A stretch of 51,464 nt of DNA from contig NZ_JAANNO010000019.1 of assembly GCF_011250645.1 (NCBI RefSeq), positions 1 to 51,464 of the forward strand, read 5' to 3'. Source of the DNA: Motilibacter aurantiacus. Lineage in GTDB: Bacteria; Actinomycetota; Actinomycetes; Motilibacterales; Motilibacteraceae. Under the pieces are notes generated by a model. That model saw only the letters and a program-made list of their open reading frames with translations, was not told where the DNA came from and did no database searches. The translations under genes and the position numbers were made by a program. Below, one piece after another: positions 13,653 to 48,398 of this stretch (positions within the stretch are counted from its first letter, which is position 1; each line of letters opens with the position of its first letter).

Positions 13653-15125
13653 ATGAGCTTCGAGATCAGTCGTCGCGCACTGCTGCGCGGCGGGCTCGGC
13701 CTGGGCGGCGTCACGCTGCTCGGCGGCGTGCCGCTCGCGGCGCACTCCGCCACCGCCGCCACGCCGCTGCCGACGGACGCCGAGGTCTACGGCGTACCCA
13801 CGACGAGCCCGCTCGTCCTCAACCGGGCCGACCCGTTCATCACCATGCCGACCAACGGCATGTACTACTTCACGGGCTCCGTGCCGGAGTACGACCGCCT
13901 GGTCGTGCGGGGCGCATCGACCATCGCAGGCCTCACCGACGCGCCGGAGTCGGTGGTCTGGCGCCGTCCCACCACGGGCACGATGGGTGGTCACATCTGG
14001 GCGCCGGAGCTGCACCGGATCGACGGCCGCTGGTACATCTACTTCGCGGCCGGTGACTCCAGCAACGTCTTCGCGATCAAGATGTACGCCATCGAGTCCA
14101 CCCTCGAGGACCCGCGCGACCCCGCGGGCTGGGGCACGCCGCGCGAGGTGACGACGCCCTGGGGGTCGTTCAAGCTCGACGCGACGACCTTCACGCACAG
14201 GGGCAGGCGCTACTACGTCTGGGCGCAGGCCGAGCCGGAGATCTCGGTCAACACCAGCCTCTACATCGCCGAGATGGCCTCCCCGTGGGCGATCAAGGGC
14301 GAGCCGCGCCGCATCTCCACCCCCACGCTCGCGTGGGAGCGGCAGGGCTTCGCGGTCAACGAGGGCGCCGCGGTGCTCGTCCGCAACGGCCGCGTCTGGA
14401 TGACCTACTCCGCCAGTGCGACCGACCACCGCTACGCGATGGGCCTGCTCTGGGCCGACGAGGACGCCGACCTGCTCGACGAGCTGTCGTGGCACAAGTC
14501 GCCCGACCCCGTCTTCGTGACGAACGAGCAGACCAAGCAGTACGGCCCGGGCCACAACTCGTTCACCGTGACCGAGGACGGCACCGACGTCCTCGTCTAC
14601 CACGCGCGCGACTACACCGGCTACATCGGCTCGGACCCGCTCTACGACCCGAACCGGCACGCCCGGGTGCAGAAGCTCTACTGGAGCCGCGACGGCATGC
14701 CGCTCTTCGGCGTCCCGGTCGGCAAGGGCGGGCCGATCGTGAGGCTGTCGCCCACCGACGACAAGCACACGTTCGTGCGTCACTTCGCGTACGTTCTCAG
14801 CGTCGAGGAGGACTCGGACAACCTGCCGCTGGGCGATACGCAGTTCCGCTTCGTGACCGGCTTCGCCGGCCCTGGGACGGAGTCGATCCAGTCGGTCAAC
14901 TACCCGGACCGGTACATCCGGGTGACCTCGACCGGCGAGGTGCGCATCGACCCGTTCGAGGGCGGGTCCGCGTACGCCGGGCAGGCCAGCTTCCGCCGCA
15001 TCCCCGCGAAGAAGGGCTACCAGCTCCAGCTGGTCGGGGACCCCGCCACGTACCTGCTGCACGACAAGGGCCGGCTCACGGTCGGGGCGCTCGCGGGCAA
15101 CCGCAGCATCTTCGAGCTGAGCTGA
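13653..15125 (+). CDS. Tat-exported GH43 arabinosidase/arabinanase with AbfB-type domain
   Basis: The 490-aa protein has a twin-arginine signal (SRRALLRGGLGLGG, cleavage near residue 35). A five-bladed GH43 propeller follows, with base Asp60 (NRADPFI), pKa-modulating Asp176 (KLDATTF) and acid Glu237 (VNEGAAV). HIWAPELHRIDGRWYIYFAAG is a typical GH43 block. Residues about 365-490 (QSVNYPDRYIRV, ATYLLHDKGRLTVG) match a beta-trefoil AbfB/CBM42-type arabinofuranose-binding domain. It probably acts as an exo-arabinofuranosidase or arabinanase alongside the preceding GH51 enzyme, 11 bases upstream. The folded Tat route contrasts with the Sec route of its neighbour. Exact specificity cannot be read from the sequence. 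Confidence 0.9.
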   Translation: MSFEISRRALLRGGLGLGGVTLLGGVPLAAHSATAATPLPTDAEVYGVPTTSPLVLNRADPFITMPTNGMYYFTGSVPEYDRLVVRGASTIAGLTDAPESVVWRRPTTGTMGGHIWAPELHRIDGRWYIYFAAGDSSNVFAIKMYAIESTLEDPRDPAGWGTPREVTTPWGSFKLDATTFTHRGRRYYVWAQAEPEISVNTSLYIAEMASPWAIKGEPRRISTPTLAWERQGFAVNEGAAVLVRNGRVWMTYSASATDHRYAMGLLWADEDADLLDELSWHKSPDPVFVTNEQTKQYGPGHNSFTVTEDGTDVLVYHARDYTGYIGSDPLYDPNRHARVQKLYWSRDGMPLFGVPVGKGGPIVRLSPTDDKHTFVRHFAYVLSVEEDSDNLPLGDTQFRFVTGFAGPGTESIQSVNYPDRYIRVTSTGEVRIDPFEGGSAYAGQASFRRIPAKKGYQLQLVGDPATYLLHDKGRLTVGALAGNRSIFELS

Positions 15126-15202: not shown

Positions 15203-15290
15203 ATGAAGGCGGCACTGTGGCGGGCGTTCCGGGGTGAGTGCGGCACTGCGGCGGACGTCGTCCGGGTGAATGCGGCAGTGTGCCCGTAGG
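15203..15290 (+). repeat. Three-unit 31-32-bp tandem repeat (TGCCGCATTCACCC family, inverted orientation)
   Basis: Three units start at 15203, 15234 and 15266 with cores ATGAAGGCGGCACTG, GTGAGTGCGGCACTG and GTGAATGCGGCAGTG. The period of 31-32 bases is not a multiple of three, so this is not coding. The reverse complement core TGCCGCAYTCACCC is the same as in the array at 46326-46483. The array lies between the GH43 terminator and the broken VOC gene. Confidence 0.7.
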
Positions 15291-15385
15291 TTCGCGTGCG
15301 TGCCACATCCACACACGCCGAGGGGGCGGGAGGAGCCGGCGGATAAGGCGTCGTGGGGGCGGAGCGGCTCGCCCAGCGTCGGGAC

Positions 15386-16208
15386 ATGGCTCTCGGGGTC
15401 GACGCGCTGGTCATCGATGCGCCAATGACCCGGCCGGGCTGGCCCGCTTCTGGGCGGGCGTGCTGGGCTGGGGCCATGCGGAACGGGTCCTCGCGGAACG
15501 GGTCCTCCCGGGACGCGGCGACCGAGCCGACGGCGAGCGGGACACGGACGGGCCTGCCCTGGTCCCGAGCGACGAGACCGGGCTGCGGATCCGGTTCGCC
15601 CGGACGCGGCTGCCCAAGGCCGGCCTCAACCAGATGCCCGTCGACCTGAGGAGCGCCTTGCCGGAGGAGCAGCGACGGACGGTGGAGCGCGCGCTCGCGC
15701 TGGTGCTCCCCATCTCGTCGTGGGGCAGCGTCCCGAGGAGGGCCACGTCGTCCTCGCCGACCCGGAGGGCAACGAGTTCCGCGTCACGGAGGCGGGCAAC
15801 GGGTTCCTCGCCGACTGCGGCCTGCTCGGGGCGCTCTCGTCGGACGGCCTGCCGTCGGTCGGCTACTTCTGGCGCGACGCCCTGGGCGTGCCGCGCGTGT
15901 GGGGCCAGGACGAGGAGACGGCGGTCAAGCTCCTGCCCGCCGGCCCGAAGATCGGCTGGGGAGGCCCGCCGGTGGCCCCCAAGACCGGGAGGAACCGGAT
16001 GCACCTCGACCTCGTTCCGACCTCCGGTAGCACCCAGGACGAGGAGGTCGAGCGCCTGCTGGGGCTGGGGGCGCTGCGGCTGCGCGATGGCCACGAGGGC
16101 GCCGACCGGGGCGTGCTGTGCGACCCCGGCGGCAACGAGCTCTGCGTCCTGCCCTCTGCCACGACCGGGAGCTCTGCCACGACGGGCTCTGCCACGACCC
16201 GGAGCTGA
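15386..16208 (+). pseudogene. Frameshifted two-domain VOC (glyoxalase/bleomycin-resistance-like) gene
   Basis: Conserved VOC-family text is spread over three frames. MALGVDALVIDA runs from 15386. After an extra GC dinucleotide at about 15419-15423 the frame becomes NDPAGLARFWAGVLGW up to ERALAL (15702). After one missing G at about 15703 it continues as GQRPEEGHVVLADPEGNEF and a second VOC domain (GYFWRDALGVPRVW, KTGRNRMHLDLVP, DPGGNELCVLP). Restoring both changes gives one continuous protein of about 273 residues. The C-terminus ends in a short repeat (TCTGCCACGAC three times at 16156-16200) encoding a Ser/Thr tail. It is either a pseudogene or carries two sequencing errors; the two independent shifts favour decay. 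Confidence 0.75.
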
Positions 16209-22009: not shown

Positions 22010-23149
22010 TCAGCGCGGGTGGGAGTGTCGGTGCTCGTGGTGGCCTGCCGGGCTCGCGTGCACGAGCGCGGCGCCGAGCCGGGGGACCGCGCCCAGCAGG
22101 TGCTGCTCCGCGGCGTGCGCCACGTCGTGCGCCGCCGCCAGGCTGAGCGCCGCGTCGACCGCGATGTCGACCTCGGCCCGGAGCGAGTGACCGATCCAGC
22201 GCACACGCAGCTCGCGCACCTCGGTGACGCCCGGCAGTGCCGCGACGACCGCCTCGGCCCGGTCGACGATGGCCGGGTCGACCGCGTCCATCAGCCGACC
22301 GCCGACCTGCGCGACGGCCTGGCGGAGCACGCCGAGGATGGCGACGGCGATGAGCAGCCCGATGACGGGGTCGGCGAGGTCCCAGCCCAGGGCCACGCCG
22401 AGCGCGCCGAGCACCACGGCCAGGCTGGTGAAGCCATCGGTGCGCGCATGCAGGCCGTCGGCCACCAGGGCCGCGGAGCCGATGCGCCGCCCGACCCGGA
22501 TCCGGTAGCGGGCGACCAGCTCGTTGCCGGCGAAGCCGACCAGCCCGGCGAGCGCCACGGCCCACAGGTGGTCGACGTCCTGGGGCGAGAGGAGCCGGCG
22601 GATCGACTCGTAGCCCACGAGGACCGTGGAGAGCGCGATCATGGCCACGACGAACAGCCCGGCCAGGTCCTCGGCGCGGCCGTACCCGTAGGTGAACCGC
22701 CTGGTCGGGGGCCGGCGGGCCAGGGCGAACGCGATGAGCAGCGGCACCGACGTCAGGGCGTCGGCCACGTTGTGCAGGGTGTCGCCGAGCAGTGCGACCG
22801 ACCCGGACAACGCGACCACGCCGGCCTGCACGAGCGCCGTGACCGTCAGCACGAGCATGCTCGTCCAGAGCGCGCGCCGACCCGCGGCGTTCGCCTCGAG
22901 CGCGCTGTCGACCCGGTCGGCGGAGTCGTGCGAGTGGCCGCCGAGGACCGCCGACAGCTCGTGGCGAAGCGTGCCCCACCTACCGTGCGGGTGGTCGTGC
23001 GGGTGGTCGTGCGGGTGGTCGTGCGGGTCGTCGTGCGGGTCGTCGTGCGGGTCGTCGTGCGCGTGGTCGTGCGCGTGGTGGGGGCCGGGACCGTGGGAGT
23101 GCGCCGGGTGCCCGGAGACGTGCGGGTGGGCGGGATGCGCGCGCGACAT
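22010..23149 (-). CDS. Cation diffusion facilitator (Zn-type) with long His-rich N-terminus
   Basis: The 379-aa metal/proton antiporter exports divalent metal from the cytosol. The first 60 residues are almost all His, Asp and Pro: a tandem HDxP/HDxA repeat built from 12-bp units. Helices follow with metal-site motifs GDTLHNVADAL and ADGLHARTDGFTSL at the usual TM2 and TM5 positions. The YGYGRAEDLAGLFVV block precedes the His loop region. The C-terminal soluble domain (PGVTEVRELRVRWIGHSLRAEVDI) is the dimerising metal sensor, and the chain ends in HHEHRHSHPR. I use the ATG at 23149; an upstream GTG-type extension would run antisense into the exporter locus. Zn is likely, but Co or Ni cannot be excluded. 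Confidence 0.88.
   Translation of the reverse strand: MSRAHPAHPHVSGHPAHSHGPGPHHAHDHAHDDPHDDPHDDPHDHPHDHPHDHPHGRWGTLRHELSAVLGGHSHDSADRVDSALEANAAGRRALWTSMLVLTVTALVQAGVVALSGSVALLGDTLHNVADALTSVPLLIAFALARRPPTRRFTYGYGRAEDLAGLFVVAMIALSTVLVGYESIRRLLSPQDVDHLWAVALAGLVGFAGNELVARYRIRVGRRIGSAALVADGLHARTDGFTSLAVVLGALGVALGWDLADPVIGLLIAVAILGVLRQAVAQVGGRLMDAVDPAIVDRAEAVVAALPGVTEVRELRVRWIGHSLRAEVDIAVDAALSLAAAHDVAHAAEQHLLGAVPRLGAALVHASPAGHHEHRHSHPR
22985..23080 (+). repeat. 12-bp minisatellite encoding the His-rich metal-binding arm
   Basis: About eight 12-bp units run in homogenised blocks: three of GTGCGGGTGGTC, three of GTGCGGGTCGTC, then two of GTGCGCGTGGTC type. On the coding (minus) strand these give HDHP, HDDP and HDHA tetrapeptides. 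Because the unit is 4 codons, copy-number change keeps the frame. Confidence 0.85.
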
Positions 23150-45006: not shown

Positions 45007-46218
45007 ATGGAGGCGATGAGCGTCTTCGGCTTCCCCCTCCGCGTCAGCCCCTGGATCTTCGTCGTGCTGTTCGCGCTGGGTCAGGGCGCCGGCGCGGCCG
45101 CCCTGATCGCCTTCGTGGTCGGTGGCGTCGCCGCGATCGCCGTGCACGAGCTGGGGCACGCCGTCGCGGCCCGTGCGGCCGGCGCCCGCGACGTCCGCAT
45201 CGAGCTGCTCGCGTTCGGCGGCCTGACGACGTTCGCGCCCGCCCCGGACAGCCGGCTGCAGCGCATCTGGATCGCTGTCGCGGGTCCGCTGACCGGCTTG
45301 GTGCTCGGGCTGCCCCTCCTGGCGCTCCGGTTCGGCGCGGATCTCGAGCCCGGCACGACGACGAGCTCGGTGATCAACGCGCTGCTCGTCGTCACCATCG
45401 GCTGGGCCGTGCTCAACCTGCTCCCGGTCCTGCCGTTCGACGGGGGCCACGTCCTCGTCTCCGTGCTGCCCGGCCGCGAGGAGGCCCGCACGCGGGTGGC
45501 GGCGGCGCTGTCGGTCGTCATCGCCGGTGCGGCGGCGTGGTTCTTCTGGAACCGGGACGCCACCTGGTCGGCGGCCGTCTTCGGCTTCCTGGCCGCGACC
45601 AACCTGATCACTCTCGTGGCGAGCGGGCGCAACCCGCAGGCTCAGCAGTCCCGGTCGTACGACGTGCTGCGCGCCGTCGTCGCCGGCCGGCTCGACGAGG
45701 CGCGCGCAGCTGTGGGCGAGGGGCGGGTCGACCCGGTGGCCGCCGCGCTCGTGCAGGTGGCGGAGGGCGGCGGCCAGCCGGCCGCCGAGCGCCTCGAGCG
45801 CGCCGCCGGCACCCGGCCCGACCCGCTGGCCCGGTCCGCCCTGGTCGTCCTGGCCGTCACCCGGCGCGACTGGGACGGGGTCGGGCGGCTCGGGGCGGAG
45901 GGCGGCGTGCCGGCAGACGTCCTGGCCTGGGCGGTCACCGTCGCCGCGCGCAGCGGCGTCCCCGCGGCGGGCGCCCGTGCCGGGCAGGCCGCGCTCGCCG
46001 GGACGCCCGCCCCGGCGCTCGCCCACGCCACCGCGCGGGCCTGGGCGCTGGCGGGCGAGCCCAGCCGGGCGTTCGACGCCGTCGTGTACGCCGTCGCGCT
46101 CGGGTGGGACGACCTGGCCGCGCTCGACGTCGACCCCGCCCTCGGGCCGGTGCGGGCGCTGCCCGCCTGGCCGGGGTGGCGGCAGGGGGTCGGCGCCGCG
46201 GCCGTACACCAGGGCTGA
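45007..46218 (+). CDS. M50-family site-2-type membrane protease
   Basis: The 403-aa protein has an N-terminal membrane protease with zinc motif HELGH at residues 47-51 (AIAVHELGHAVAARAAG) and the second conserved motif NLLPVLPFDGGHVL (Asp as third ligand), plus further helices (AALSVVIAGAAAWFFW, AVFGFLAATNLITLVASG). Residues about 215-403 are soluble, Ala-rich and helical in repeats (RLDEARAAVGEGRVDPVAAAL, RAWALAGEPSRAFDAVVYAVALGWDDLAAL), resembling TPR-type units. It would cut membrane-embedded substrates such as anti-sigma factors; the target is not evident. An in-frame ATG at 45016 is an alternative start. Confidence 0.88.
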   Translation: MEAMSVFGFPLRVSPWIFVVLFALGQGAGAAALIAFVVGGVAAIAVHELGHAVAARAAGARDVRIELLAFGGLTTFAPAPDSRLQRIWIAVAGPLTGLVLGLPLLALRFGADLEPGTTTSSVINALLVVTIGWAVLNLLPVLPFDGGHVLVSVLPGREEARTRVAAALSVVIAGAAAWFFWNRDATWSAAVFGFLAATNLITLVASGRNPQAQQSRSYDVLRAVVAGRLDEARAAVGEGRVDPVAAALVQVAEGGGQPAAERLERAAGTRPDPLARSALVVLAVTRRDWDGVGRLGAEGGVPADVLAWAVTVAARSGVPAAGARAGQAALAGTPAPALAHATARAWALAGEPSRAFDAVVYAVALGWDDLAALDVDPALGPVRALPAWPGWRQGVGAAAVHQG

Positions 46219-46325
46219 GGCGCGGCTCGCGCGCGGCCCCTGCGCGGACCCCCACCCCGCCGGCGCCCGTCGCGCCCCGGTCGCGCCCGTCCCACCCGCC
46301 CGCGCCCCCGTGCCCGTCGGGGTGA

Positions 46326-46483
46326 ATGTCACATCCAGTCGAACCTAGGGCCGCGATGCCGCATTCAGGCAGCCCGGGCCTGCCGCGATGCCGCAGCAAC
46401 CCGGCACGGGTCCGGCGCGACACCGCCTCCCCCTGCGACGGGCCTGGCGCGATGCCGCATTCACCCGACCCGACCAGGTCCCG
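46326..46483 (+). repeat. Five-unit 30-32-bp tandem repeat array (TGCCGCATTCACCC family)
   Basis: Cores start at 46326 (ATGTCACATCCA), 46356 (ATGCCGCATTCA), 46388 (ATGCCGCAGCAA), 46420 (ACACCGCCTCCC) and 46452 (ATGCCGCATTCA), with periods of 30, 32, 32 and 32. Intact cores are symmetric around a central C (ATGT-C-ACAT, ATGC-C-GCAT). The array lies between the M50 gene and the convergent amidase gene. The same family occurs in reverse orientation at 15203-15290. Confidence 0.75.
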
Positions 46484-46574
46484 GCGGCACCCCGGTCCAC
46501 GGCGCGGGCGGCGGCCTGCCGCGGACGCAGCCCTGCCCGCCGACCAGGCAAGCCCCGCCCGCCGGGGCCAGCCC

Positions 46575-46640
46575 CGCCCGCCCCGCAAGCCCCGCAAGCC
46601 CCGCCGCCCCGCAAGCCCCGCCGCCCCGCAAGCCCCGGCC
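46575..46640 (+). repeat. GCAAGCCCCGCCGCC simple tandem repeat
   Basis: GCAAG recurs at 46585, 46594, 46611 and 46628 in a C-rich background (unit CCCCGCAAGCCCCGCCG, 17 bp). It lies in the 527-base gap between the M50 and amidase genes and holds no credible gene. The rest of the gap is the 32-bp array and a terminator. Confidence 0.65.
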
Positions 46641-46695
46641 GCCACCAGCTCCCGCCGGCGCGCGCCACCGACCCCCCCGGGCAGCCGAACGACGA

Positions 46696-46745: not shown

Positions 46746-48398
46746 TCACTCGCTGAGCGCGGTGGCCTGCTCCGGGGTGAGGCGCAGCGGCGTGGCCACG
46801 GCGGCGCGGCGGGCCGCCGAGGACGCGACCGGGTTCGCCGGCCGGCGCAGGTGGAAGTCGGTCACCTGCTGGTACGCCGCGGCCACCTCGAGCAGCCGGT
46901 CCTCGGCGTAGGGGCTGCCGCCGAGGATGCAGCCGCGCGGCGTGGGCAGGCCGTTGCGGTTGACGAAGCCGATCGGGAACGTGATCTCCGGCAGCCCGAG
47001 GATGTCGAACGGCACCACGCTGGTCTGGAGCACGACGTCGCACCGCTCGAAGAACGTGTCCATGACGCGCTCGAGCAGCTCGTACTTCGCGCGCTGCCCG
47101 GTGATCCACTCGTCGCCGGACAGGAACAGCCCCTGCATCCAGCTGCCCAGCGAGACGCCGAACTGCTTGAGGTCCTGCTTGAGGAACTGCTTGAACGGCT
47201 CGGACCGCTCGGGCAGCCGGACCGCGTTGAACGTGTCCGTCAGCAGGCTCCATTCCGCAGGCAGCGGGACCTCGACCAGGTCGACCTTGTGGATGGAGCT
47301 GAGGGTGTCCAGGAACTGGCCCCGCAGCGCCGCGTCCGCCCCGCTGACGTAGTTCGGGATGACGCCGATCTTCGTGCGGGAGCGGATCGCGGGCTTGCCG
47401 CCGGTGACCACCGGGGTCGCGGCCCGGATGTAGTCGGGCGGGTCGGGCAGGCCCTGGGAGCGGAAGTCGTGGGGGTCCTCGCCGGCCATCGCGGTGAGCA
47501 TGATCGCCGCGTCCCTGGCGTCCCGGGCCAGCGGCCCGGGGTGGTCGCGCGTGTAGGTCAGCGGGACGATGCCGTAGAGCGAGATCCGGCCCATGGTCGG
47601 CTTGAGGCCGGTGAGGCCCTGCTGCTGGGCCGGGCCGATGATCGAGCCACCGGTCTGGGTGCCGATCGAGGACGTGGCCAGCCGGCCGGCGGTGGCGGTG
47701 GCCGAGCCCGTCGACGAGCCCGCCGGGTCGTACGAGGGGTCGTTCGGCGTCCACGCGTTGACCGTGGTGACCGTGCCGTTGGGCGTGGTCGCACGGGTGG
47801 TGGCCAGGGGCCCCATCTGCATCTTGCCGAGGACCAGGCCGCCGGCGAGCTTGAGCCGGGCCACGGCCGTCGCGTCGAACGGCGGCACGAAGTCGGCGAA
47901 GATGTAGGAGTTGACGGTGGTCAACGTGCCCTTGGTGAAGTAGTTGTCCTTGATGGCCAGCGGGATGCCGTAGAGCGGCGACGTGGCGCTCGCCCCCGCC
48001 GTGAGCGCCCGCGCCTCGGACAGCACGTCCGCGGTGCGCACGGTGTTGAAGGCCTTGTAGACCGACTCGAACGCGTTGATCCGGGCGAGGTAGGCCTCGA
48101 CCAGGCCGACGGGCGTGAGCTTGCCGTTCTTGATCTGGTACGCCGCCTCGGCGATGGTGAGCTCGGTCGGGTCCGCTTGGGCCTCGGGCCGCGGGGCGAC
48201 CCAGGCGTCGGCGCGGAACGTCGCCAGCGGGGCCATCTTCGGGGTGCGGTACTTCACCGCGGTGGCGGCCTCGGCCGCGGTCGGGCCCCACGCCAGCTGG
48301 CCGGCCGACGCCGCGGCGGTCACGGCCAGGGAGCGGGCGAGGAACGTTCGGCGGGCGAGGCCCTTGTCCAGGCGGCCGGGCTCGGTCTCGTTGCGCAT
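46746..48398 (-). CDS. Tat-exported amidase-signature family hydrolase
   Basis: The 550-aa protein has a twin-arginine signal (LARRTFLARSLAVTAAASAG). The amidase-signature fold follows: catalytic Lys in YGIPLAIKDNYFT, the Gly/Ser-rich segment DPAGSSTGSATATAG with the cis-Ser, and the nucleophile Ser in GTQTGGSIIGPA. C-terminal QTSVVPFDILGLPEITFPIGF fits the family. It would hydrolyse an amide bond outside the cytoplasm; the substrate is unknown. Its ATG shares one base with the stop of the upstream 101-aa gene, so both are coupled. Confidence 0.9.
   Translation of the reverse strand: MRNETEPGRLDKGLARRTFLARSLAVTAAASAGQLAWGPTAAEAATAVKYRTPKMAPLATFRADAWVAPRPEAQADPTELTIAEAAYQIKNGKLTPVGLVEAYLARINAFESVYKAFNTVRTADVLSEARALTAGASATSPLYGIPLAIKDNYFTKGTLTTVNSYIFADFVPPFDATAVARLKLAGGLVLGKMQMGPLATTRATTPNGTVTTVNAWTPNDPSYDPAGSSTGSATATAGRLATSSIGTQTGGSIIGPAQQQGLTGLKPTMGRISLYGIVPLTYTRDHPGPLARDARDAAIMLTAMAGEDPHDFRSQGLPDPPDYIRAATPVVTGGKPAIRSRTKIGVIPNYVSGADAALRGQFLDTLSSIHKVDLVEVPLPAEWSLLTDTFNAVRLPERSEPFKQFLKQDLKQFGVSLGSWMQGLFLSGDEWITGQRAKYELLERVMDTFFERCDVVLQTSVVPFDILGLPEITFPIGFVNRNGLPTPRGCILGGSPYAEDRLLEVAAAYQQVTDFHLRRPANPVASSAARRAAVATPLRLTPEQATALSE

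Follow-up and report, generated by a model that had tools for sequence, protein, structure and literature searches.

Introduction

Repetitive extragenic palindromic (REP) sequences are defined in general terms as repeated palindromes of 21–65 bases located outside genes, and the roles discussed for them include stabilising the end of the message and damping opposing transcription, according to the sections of PMC1525189 drawn on here. REPs of the GTAG and CGTC types are short, palindromic and extragenic, often species-specific and often arranged as opposite pairs, and they lie mostly in convergent or co-oriented gaps near 3' ends (Di Nocera 2013, PMC3733652, in the part of the article used here). 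The same part says that CGTC REPs have no dedicated transposase, and it places the described REP superfamilies in Proteobacteria and several other phyla, actinobacteria not being among those it names. For Streptomyces, the relevant section of PMC12207403 describes terminators that are likewise poor in U.

We analysed a stretch of 51,464 nucleotides (the window), which is contig C19 of the Motilibacter aurantiacus genome (G000; 4.59 Mb, 62 contigs), together with a congener (G001), a genome of another family (G031) and wider samples of the class. An array in the window proved to belong to a dispersed family of palindromes. Like the GTAG and CGTC REPs in the cited part of PMC3733652, its members are extragenic palindromes near 3' ends, and no RAYT transposase was found in the six genomes searched (compare the CGTC type); unlike those REPs, the Motilibacter and G031 unit carries neither tag at its ends, has TAGG at its centre instead and resides in an actinobacterial host. 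With REPINs, as presented in the section of PMC3116915 used here, the family shares the folding of two inverted palindromes across a spacer into a single hairpin, compensating changes and ordered tandem clusters, whereas here the spacer centre is conserved in sequence and tandem copies of one arm, most of them in direct orientation, make up the Motilibacter arrays.

Results

A phased array of palindromic cores lies between two convergent genes, as an earlier note on this sequence had recorded. They are an M50 peptidase gene ending at 46218 (plus strand) and an amidase gene ending at 46746 (minus strand) (Table 1; genes were called with a codon-usage script, not a standard gene finder). That note described five units of 30–32 bp at 46326–46483 and gave the intact core sequences as ATGTCACAT and ATGCCGCAT. 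The sequences were correct, and five core positions stand in phase at spacings of 30, 32, 32 and 32 bp, but only three of the cores are intact, one is weak and one has decayed; the true first core starts 3 bp earlier (46323) and the last core ends at 46463. A linker with TAGG between the first two cores (CCTA on the plus strand at 46344–46347) had been missed. Core scores in bits come from a matrix trained on copies outside the window and are mildly circular, because those copies had been picked up by their likeness to the window motif; by this measure four sites of at least 6 bits fell inside 150 bp, whereas 60 shuffled windows gave at most three (1/60). Searching both strands with TGAATGYVRCATTCA at up to 3 mismatches gave 10 window matches versus a mean of 1.65 in shuffled sequences, none of 100 of which reached 10, and the looser pattern ATGCCGCATTC at up to 2 mismatches showed no enrichment in the window (7 versus 8.7 expected). 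A second array of the same family lies elsewhere in the window (Table 1).

Two other tandem repeats were noticed in the window. A GC-rich repeat of AGCCCCGCC-like units at 46551–46643 adjoins the array in the same convergent gap, and eight near-identical copies of the 12-bp repeat CGTGCGGGTGGT occupy 22984–23079, within a gene called on the minus strand.

Table 1. Features of the two arrays and their neighbouring genes in the window.
Feature	Position	Strand	Remarks
M50 peptidase family gene (Pfam Peptidase_M50)	45007..46218	+	left convergent neighbour of window array
Hairpin unit, cores 1 and 2 with TAGG linker	46322..46368	-	model R1, 55.4 bits; itself among the 13 sequences of R1
Core 1, TGAATGTCACATCCA	46323..46337	.	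intact; 22.3 bits
TAGG centre of worn hairpin unit	46344..46347	-	reads CCTA on +
Core 2, GCGATGCCGCATTCA	46353..46367	.	intact; 19.6 bits
Core 3	46385..46399	.	weak copy; 6.6 bits
Core 4 position	46417..46431	.	decayed; -1.5 bits; unrecognisable by sequence
Core 5, GCGATGCCGCATTCA	46449..46463	.	intact; 19.6 bits
Amidase family gene (Pfam Amidase)	46746..48398	-	right convergent neighbour of window array
Glycosyl hydrolase 43 / AbfB gene	13653..15125	+	upstream neighbour of second array
Second array, same family, four cores	15204..15311	.	cores at 15204, 15235, 15267, 15297 (13.6, 11.1, 17.6, 12.7 bits)
Hairpin unit of second array	15266..15312	+	TAGG at 15287-15290; model R1, 54.7 bits; also among the 13 sequences of R1
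Glyoxalase-like gene	15720..16208	+	downstream neighbour of second array

The motif recurred when it was counted over the whole genome, a check that had been proposed for the array. The 12-mer ATGCCGCATTCA occurred 8 times across G000 versus 0 times for its reversed control, and TGAATGYSRCATYCA at up to 2 mismatches on both strands occurred 56 times versus 2 for the control. The family comprises 17 loci in G000, 20 in G001 and at least 50 copies in G031. Most of the G000 arrays that were read contain two cores on either side of a linker that carries TAGG or a close variant (TGGG at C3:179013, GAGG at C3:180113). A covariance model built from 13 such units (R1) returned 40 rows from both strands of G000 at E <=1, which correspond to the 17 loci, and 54 rows from G001 at 0.01. 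At 1e-6, R1 matched four of the five genomes of the order, and in a sample of the class it matched 6 of 296 genomes, namely G186, four members of the window's family and, from another family, G031 with 12 rows.

R2, a further model, was built from 22 units, with G186 also among its seeds, and at 0.001 on both strands gave 36 rows in G000, 45 in G001, 7 in G002, 1 in G003, 34 in G004 and 103 in G031. Many of the G004 rows are probably ordinary hairpins; 13 stretches of that genome were scanned for TAGG-centred stems, and one copy had a strong stem. At 1e-5, R2 matched at least 30 of 393 class genomes, and the counts of both class surveys are lower bounds because only 15 candidates per genome were scored (20 in the R1 survey). 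Among 25 R2 class loci that were read, one came from G003; ten of the other 24 were centred on TAGG, twelve were without TAGG, and in two the match lay outside the stretch shown. The distribution is patchy. Nine of these 24 loci were a recurrent hairpin in nine genomes of genus g67, including G186, with the loop GATAGGCTC and a GGACGCC stem; it gave one match per genome and was alike between genomes (L149–L152, L154, L162, L164, L165, L170). A further locus, L158 (G009:C80:3091-3141), from yet another family, was a single hairpin with the centre CCTATTGG, as in G031.

Possible carriers and known families were also searched. Plasmids and phages contained no match to the family and viral contigs no match to one exact pattern, and spread by any of these was rejected. 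An Rfam scan of 12 loci at E <=1 returned six hits. Four of these did not reach the gathering score, and the remaining two were tRNA genes next to one copy; a known RNA family was thus rejected, none being found among the 12 loci at that score. The Y1 transposase RAYT (PF01797) was found in none of six genomes at E 0.01 by a search that was positive in 6 of 14 control genomes. With PF01797 absent from G000 and from all six genomes searched, a REPIN driven by RAYT was rejected. No title on such a family appeared among the matches listed from the open-licence PMC literature.

The basic unit consists of two inverted cores of 13–15 bp, with centres 30 bp apart and TAGG exactly midway, forming a potential hairpin of about 47–57 nt. 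Motilibacter loci contained 97 adjacent core pairs 25–40 bp apart, 40 of them at 30 bp, 44 at 32 bp and the other 13 at 29, 31, 33 and 37 bp, so that the spacing, another of the proposed checks, was not random (84/97 at 30 or 32 bp). The two classes differed in their spacers. When cores were called blind to the loop, TAGG was exactly central in 28 of 39 pairs at 30 bp (one of the 40, cut by the locus end, was dropped from this tally) versus 0 of 44 at 32 bp. The 32-bp spacer keeps its length, its middle being almost without sequence conservation; arrays repeat one arm at this distance without TAGG, and the Motilibacter 32-bp pairs are mostly in direct orientation, with C at both core centres in 28 of 44. 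A loop-blind search in G031, on loci biased by their choice via models containing TAGG, gave 50 pairs at 30 bp, 48 of them with TAGG, and 2 pairs at 32 bp.

Stems vary by species, and the TAGG centre is kept. The Motilibacter stem reads GAATGC(C/G)GCATTC, that of G031 GAACGCGGCGTTC and that of G002 GATGGCCCATC, and GAAGGCGCC was seen in one G004 and one G000 copy. In 50 G031 units, selected for containing TAGG, this centre and most core positions are almost invariant. The conserved linker positions d 3, 4 and 6 are unpaired in most G031 copies, and the retention of TAGG, partly in an unpaired stretch, suggests that something reads TAGG. By majority letters, the ends of the 50 G031 units are TTCGAATG and CATTCG(G/A)A, and perfect G001 units have the ends TTTGGCAG and CTGCCAAA. 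A G precedes the single central TAGG in some copies only.

Because each core is near-palindromic and the pair is palindromic as well, the unit could be read as a hairpin or as a set of protein sites, and covariation separates the two readings in part. Cross-arm Watson-Crick pairing in 29 Motilibacter TAGG units was 0.690 versus 0.613 in shuffles (0/2000). In the same units, internal pairing of whole cores was at expectation (z 1.1 and -0.2), and a within-core excess appeared when the inner six positions of the two cores were pooled (z 2.9). Compared directly, the arms were no more identical than expected (z 0), which speaks against relatedness as the source of the cross-arm pairing. The 50 G031 units gave a cross-arm z of 6.7 (0/1000), with slid controls at or below expectation, and within-core z values of -1.2 and -0.3. 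In alignment A2, whose rows were chosen for good hairpins, 85.9% of hairpin cells were paired, and covariation was 0.491 versus 0.167 in shuffles for the hairpin and 0.335 versus 0.163 within cores. Compensation is thus seen between arms and to a far smaller extent inside a core. This favours a hairpin rather than separate palindromic sites bound by protein, and the conserved object is mainly a hairpin. The idea that paired changes keep the symmetry of the core holds to some degree for the inner six positions but is not supported as a general rule, since whole cores show no excess. Motilibacter pairs at 32 bp had weaker cross-arm pairing (z 3.1) and neighbours alike as direct copies (z 5.5), a pattern that fits tandem duplication of an arm.

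Ten chosen copies were folded. The eight outside the window gave z values of -5.7 to -12.8; both window copies folded no better than shuffled sequences (z -0.02 and 0.17), indicating that the window array is a worn copy. RNA folding of the whole window array gave z values of -1.68 and -1.42 only. This array may thus not function as a hairpin.

The 17 loci of G000 comprised 11 between convergent genes, 4 tandem, 1 divergent and 1 in a called ORF, and the 20 of G001 comprised 12 convergent, 4 tandem, 1 divergent and 3 at contig ends. Compared with 65 convergent pairs among 360 adjacent gene pairs in G000 and 58 among 326 in G001 (400 kb each), convergent positions were enriched in G000 (11/17, p 2.8e-5) and in G001 (12 of 17 loci with both neighbours, p 2.5e-6). 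The preference for convergent genes, which the earlier note had wanted to see checked, is therefore real in both genomes. This tally omits loci that share a counted gap (L073, L083, L085, L088-L090, L101, L102) and L139; a divergent copy found later (G001:C232:478866) is outside it and would make the G001 figure 12/18, and the G001 contig ends C155 and C124, both of which match G000 C1:632187, may be halves of one locus.

In G031, 49 of the 50 elements (L139 omitted) comprised 22 convergent, 21 tandem and 4 divergent settings, 1 edge and 1 in a called ORF, and element-free gaps of at least 60 bp comprised 8 convergent, 25 tandem and 22 divergent ones (Fisher's test: convergent enrichment, p 4.6e-4; divergent depletion, p 2.5e-4). 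Distances to 3' ends were measured in G031 only, where 18 of the 21 tandem elements were closer to the 3' end of the upstream gene. Over 50 G031 units and in both directions, T made up 9% and G 53% of the 16 nt that follow the hairpin; sequence past stop codons is generally C-rich in this genome. At the G031 locus L135, with tRNAs at 1298-1370 and 1409-1482, a TAGG hairpin (1501-1547) starts 18 bases past the second tRNA. Strong ordinary hairpins were present in 18 of 43 and 17 of 39 convergent gaps of the 400-kb stretches surveyed in G000 and G001, counts that include element gaps.

Judged by neighbouring genes, seven of the 17 loci in G000 have a counterpart among the G001 element loci, C23:14305 on one flank only. 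They include the window array, the cores of which are in register with those of its counterpart (C253:69119) over diverged spacers. The convergent gap of G000 orthologous to the G001 array at C232:662374 holds an ordinary hairpin instead (27.9 bits with R2, under the threshold of the hairpin survey), and the place of a large G000 cluster (C3:330400-330730) is taken in G001 by a gap of 76 bp containing an imperfect hairpin. Both species carry a copy at the same place between divergent genes (G000:C3:179013, L070; G001:C232:478866, L202), a setting in which a role at transcript ends is not evident. In G031, two copies separated by 576 bp have an identical 54-bp unit in different flanks, which suggests copying. 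No clear direct flanking repeat of the kind left by target duplication was found in 50 G031 copies, the largest flank excess (33 versus 22, two bases at the unit's own ends) arising because those ends pair; a MITE with target duplication was rejected on this basis.

Discussion

The family qualifies as a REP by the general definition: its units measure 47–57 nt, they are extragenic at 16 of 17 G000 loci and 47 of 49 in G031, and they prefer convergent or co-oriented gaps near 3' ends (3'-end distances from G031). It does not qualify by the end tags of the described superfamilies or by a link to RAYT. Inverted doublets, a hairpin and compensatory changes, which characterise REPINs, are all present; we use REPIN-like for the way in which the unit would work and do not claim a REPIN by descent.

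On balance, we lean towards reading the window array as a decayed REPIN-like extragenic palindromic repeat with tandem copies of an arm, the hairpin of which would serve at transcript ends. The location of the copies, their two-way symmetry and the compensation between arms point to an RNA hairpin at message ends. Of the two roles that the earlier note had allowed for, the one at transcription ends fits best, and no result of this analysis spoke to the one in chromosomal architecture. An intact unit would fold as one hairpin in RNA or single-stranded DNA and, at message ends, would be transcribed from either side; there it could protect the 3' end and reduce read-through into the facing gene. 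A more stable message end and weaker opposing transcription would be the most likely effect. A putative factor recognising the core and TAGG may have spread and homogenised the family, and in Motilibacter the arm was presumably duplicated in tandem at 32 bp, giving phased arrays. Several observations stand against this preferred reading: the window copies fold no better than shuffled sequences, a divergent copy exists in both species, and part of the G031 linker is conserved yet unpaired in most copies, which would be superfluous for a hairpin alone. The within-core z of 2.9, the T-poor sequence that follows the G031 hairpin and the fact that neither a RAYT transposase nor a clear target duplication was found count against it as well.

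The earlier note had favoured a phased set of protein-binding sites about three helical turns apart over a neutral minisatellite. Spelled out, a putative protein dimer on each duplex core would form a roadblock or loop between the convergent genes. We regard such sites as unlikely, since compensation runs mainly across the arms, favouring the hairpin, whereas whole cores do not compensate (Motilibacter z 1.1 and -0.2; G031 -1.2 and -0.3), and regular 32-bp arrays are almost absent from the G031 loci read (2 pairs versus 50 at 30 bp). There is no known binding protein. The part of the proposal that stood is the held spacing, 30 or 32 bp in 84 of 97 pairs though the middle of the 32-bp spacer is unconserved, and this rigidity still allows for a protein-binding role. 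The palindromic core consensus, the within-core covariation of A2 (0.335 versus 0.163) and the inner six positions (z 2.9) speak for it too, as do the orthologous window array, which keeps the core register over diverged spacers, and the window copies, which retain cores and not the fold. The minisatellite itself was rightly disfavoured. A neutral repeat or a drifting remnant without function would agree with the wear of the window copies, with the other GC-rich tandem repeat of the gap (46551-46643) and with the likeness of adjacent 32-bp cores as direct copies (z 5.5), but compensating arm changes, held spacing, the convergent-gap bias and positions kept in two species make it very improbable.

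If the elements were ordinary intrinsic terminators of a high-GC genome, working in both directions and copied and homogenised by chance, this would account for GC-rich hairpins that lie shortly past stop codons and are usable both ways. Strong ordinary hairpins are common in convergent gaps (18/43 and 17/39, element gaps included), an ordinary hairpin replaces an array in the sister species, and Streptomyces terminators are also poor in U, as described in the relevant section of PMC12207403. We nevertheless consider terminators improbable. The sequence past the G031 hairpin has no U-tract (9% T in 16 nt, 50 units, both directions), a fixed and partly unpaired TAGG centre and species-homogeneous stems are superfluous for termination, and a divergent gap holds a copy in both species. 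The stable hairpin of a terminator was seen in the eight chosen copies outside the window and not in the two worn window copies. A further proposal is a REP-like actinobacterial system independent of RAYT, in which a putative DNA-processing enzyme or RNA-binding protein reads TAGG and the general GAAnG...CnTTC frame of the cores, stems drift into species dialects and Motilibacter arms multiply into phased arrays; we put this joint proposal forward tentatively, as a possibility that is itself somewhat doubtful.

Two further labels were considered for the array. Plasmid iterons are regularly spaced repeats beside a replication initiator gene. The regular spacing is common to both, whereas the neighbours here are an M50 peptidase and an amidase gene (Peptidase_M50, Amidase), no replication gene stands beside the array, and the repeat is dispersed over many intergenic regions; the name iteron, under which the array had first been described, was rejected on these grounds. 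The cores also resemble 7-1-7 operator boxes. Because the divergent gaps of G031 are depleted of copies and the stems vary from species to species, a regulator box was set aside.

The occurrence of a REPIN-like family in high-GC actinobacteria, lacking both the usual tag and the usual enzyme, would imply that this architecture can arise or persist otherwise. The TAGG centre, common to distant species with different stems, points to a candidate trans-acting factor, and the family allows the determinants of transcript ends in convergent gaps to be tested concretely in bacteria with U-poor terminators.

Motilibacter intergenic regions also hold a second long palindromic repeat, built on TGTGGACAACTCGCCACA and, in longer copies, ending GCATGATC. 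It was seen at G000:C3:276257 (L187), as a variant at C3:141480 (L181), and on contig C232 of G001 at 420431, 578235 and 612390.
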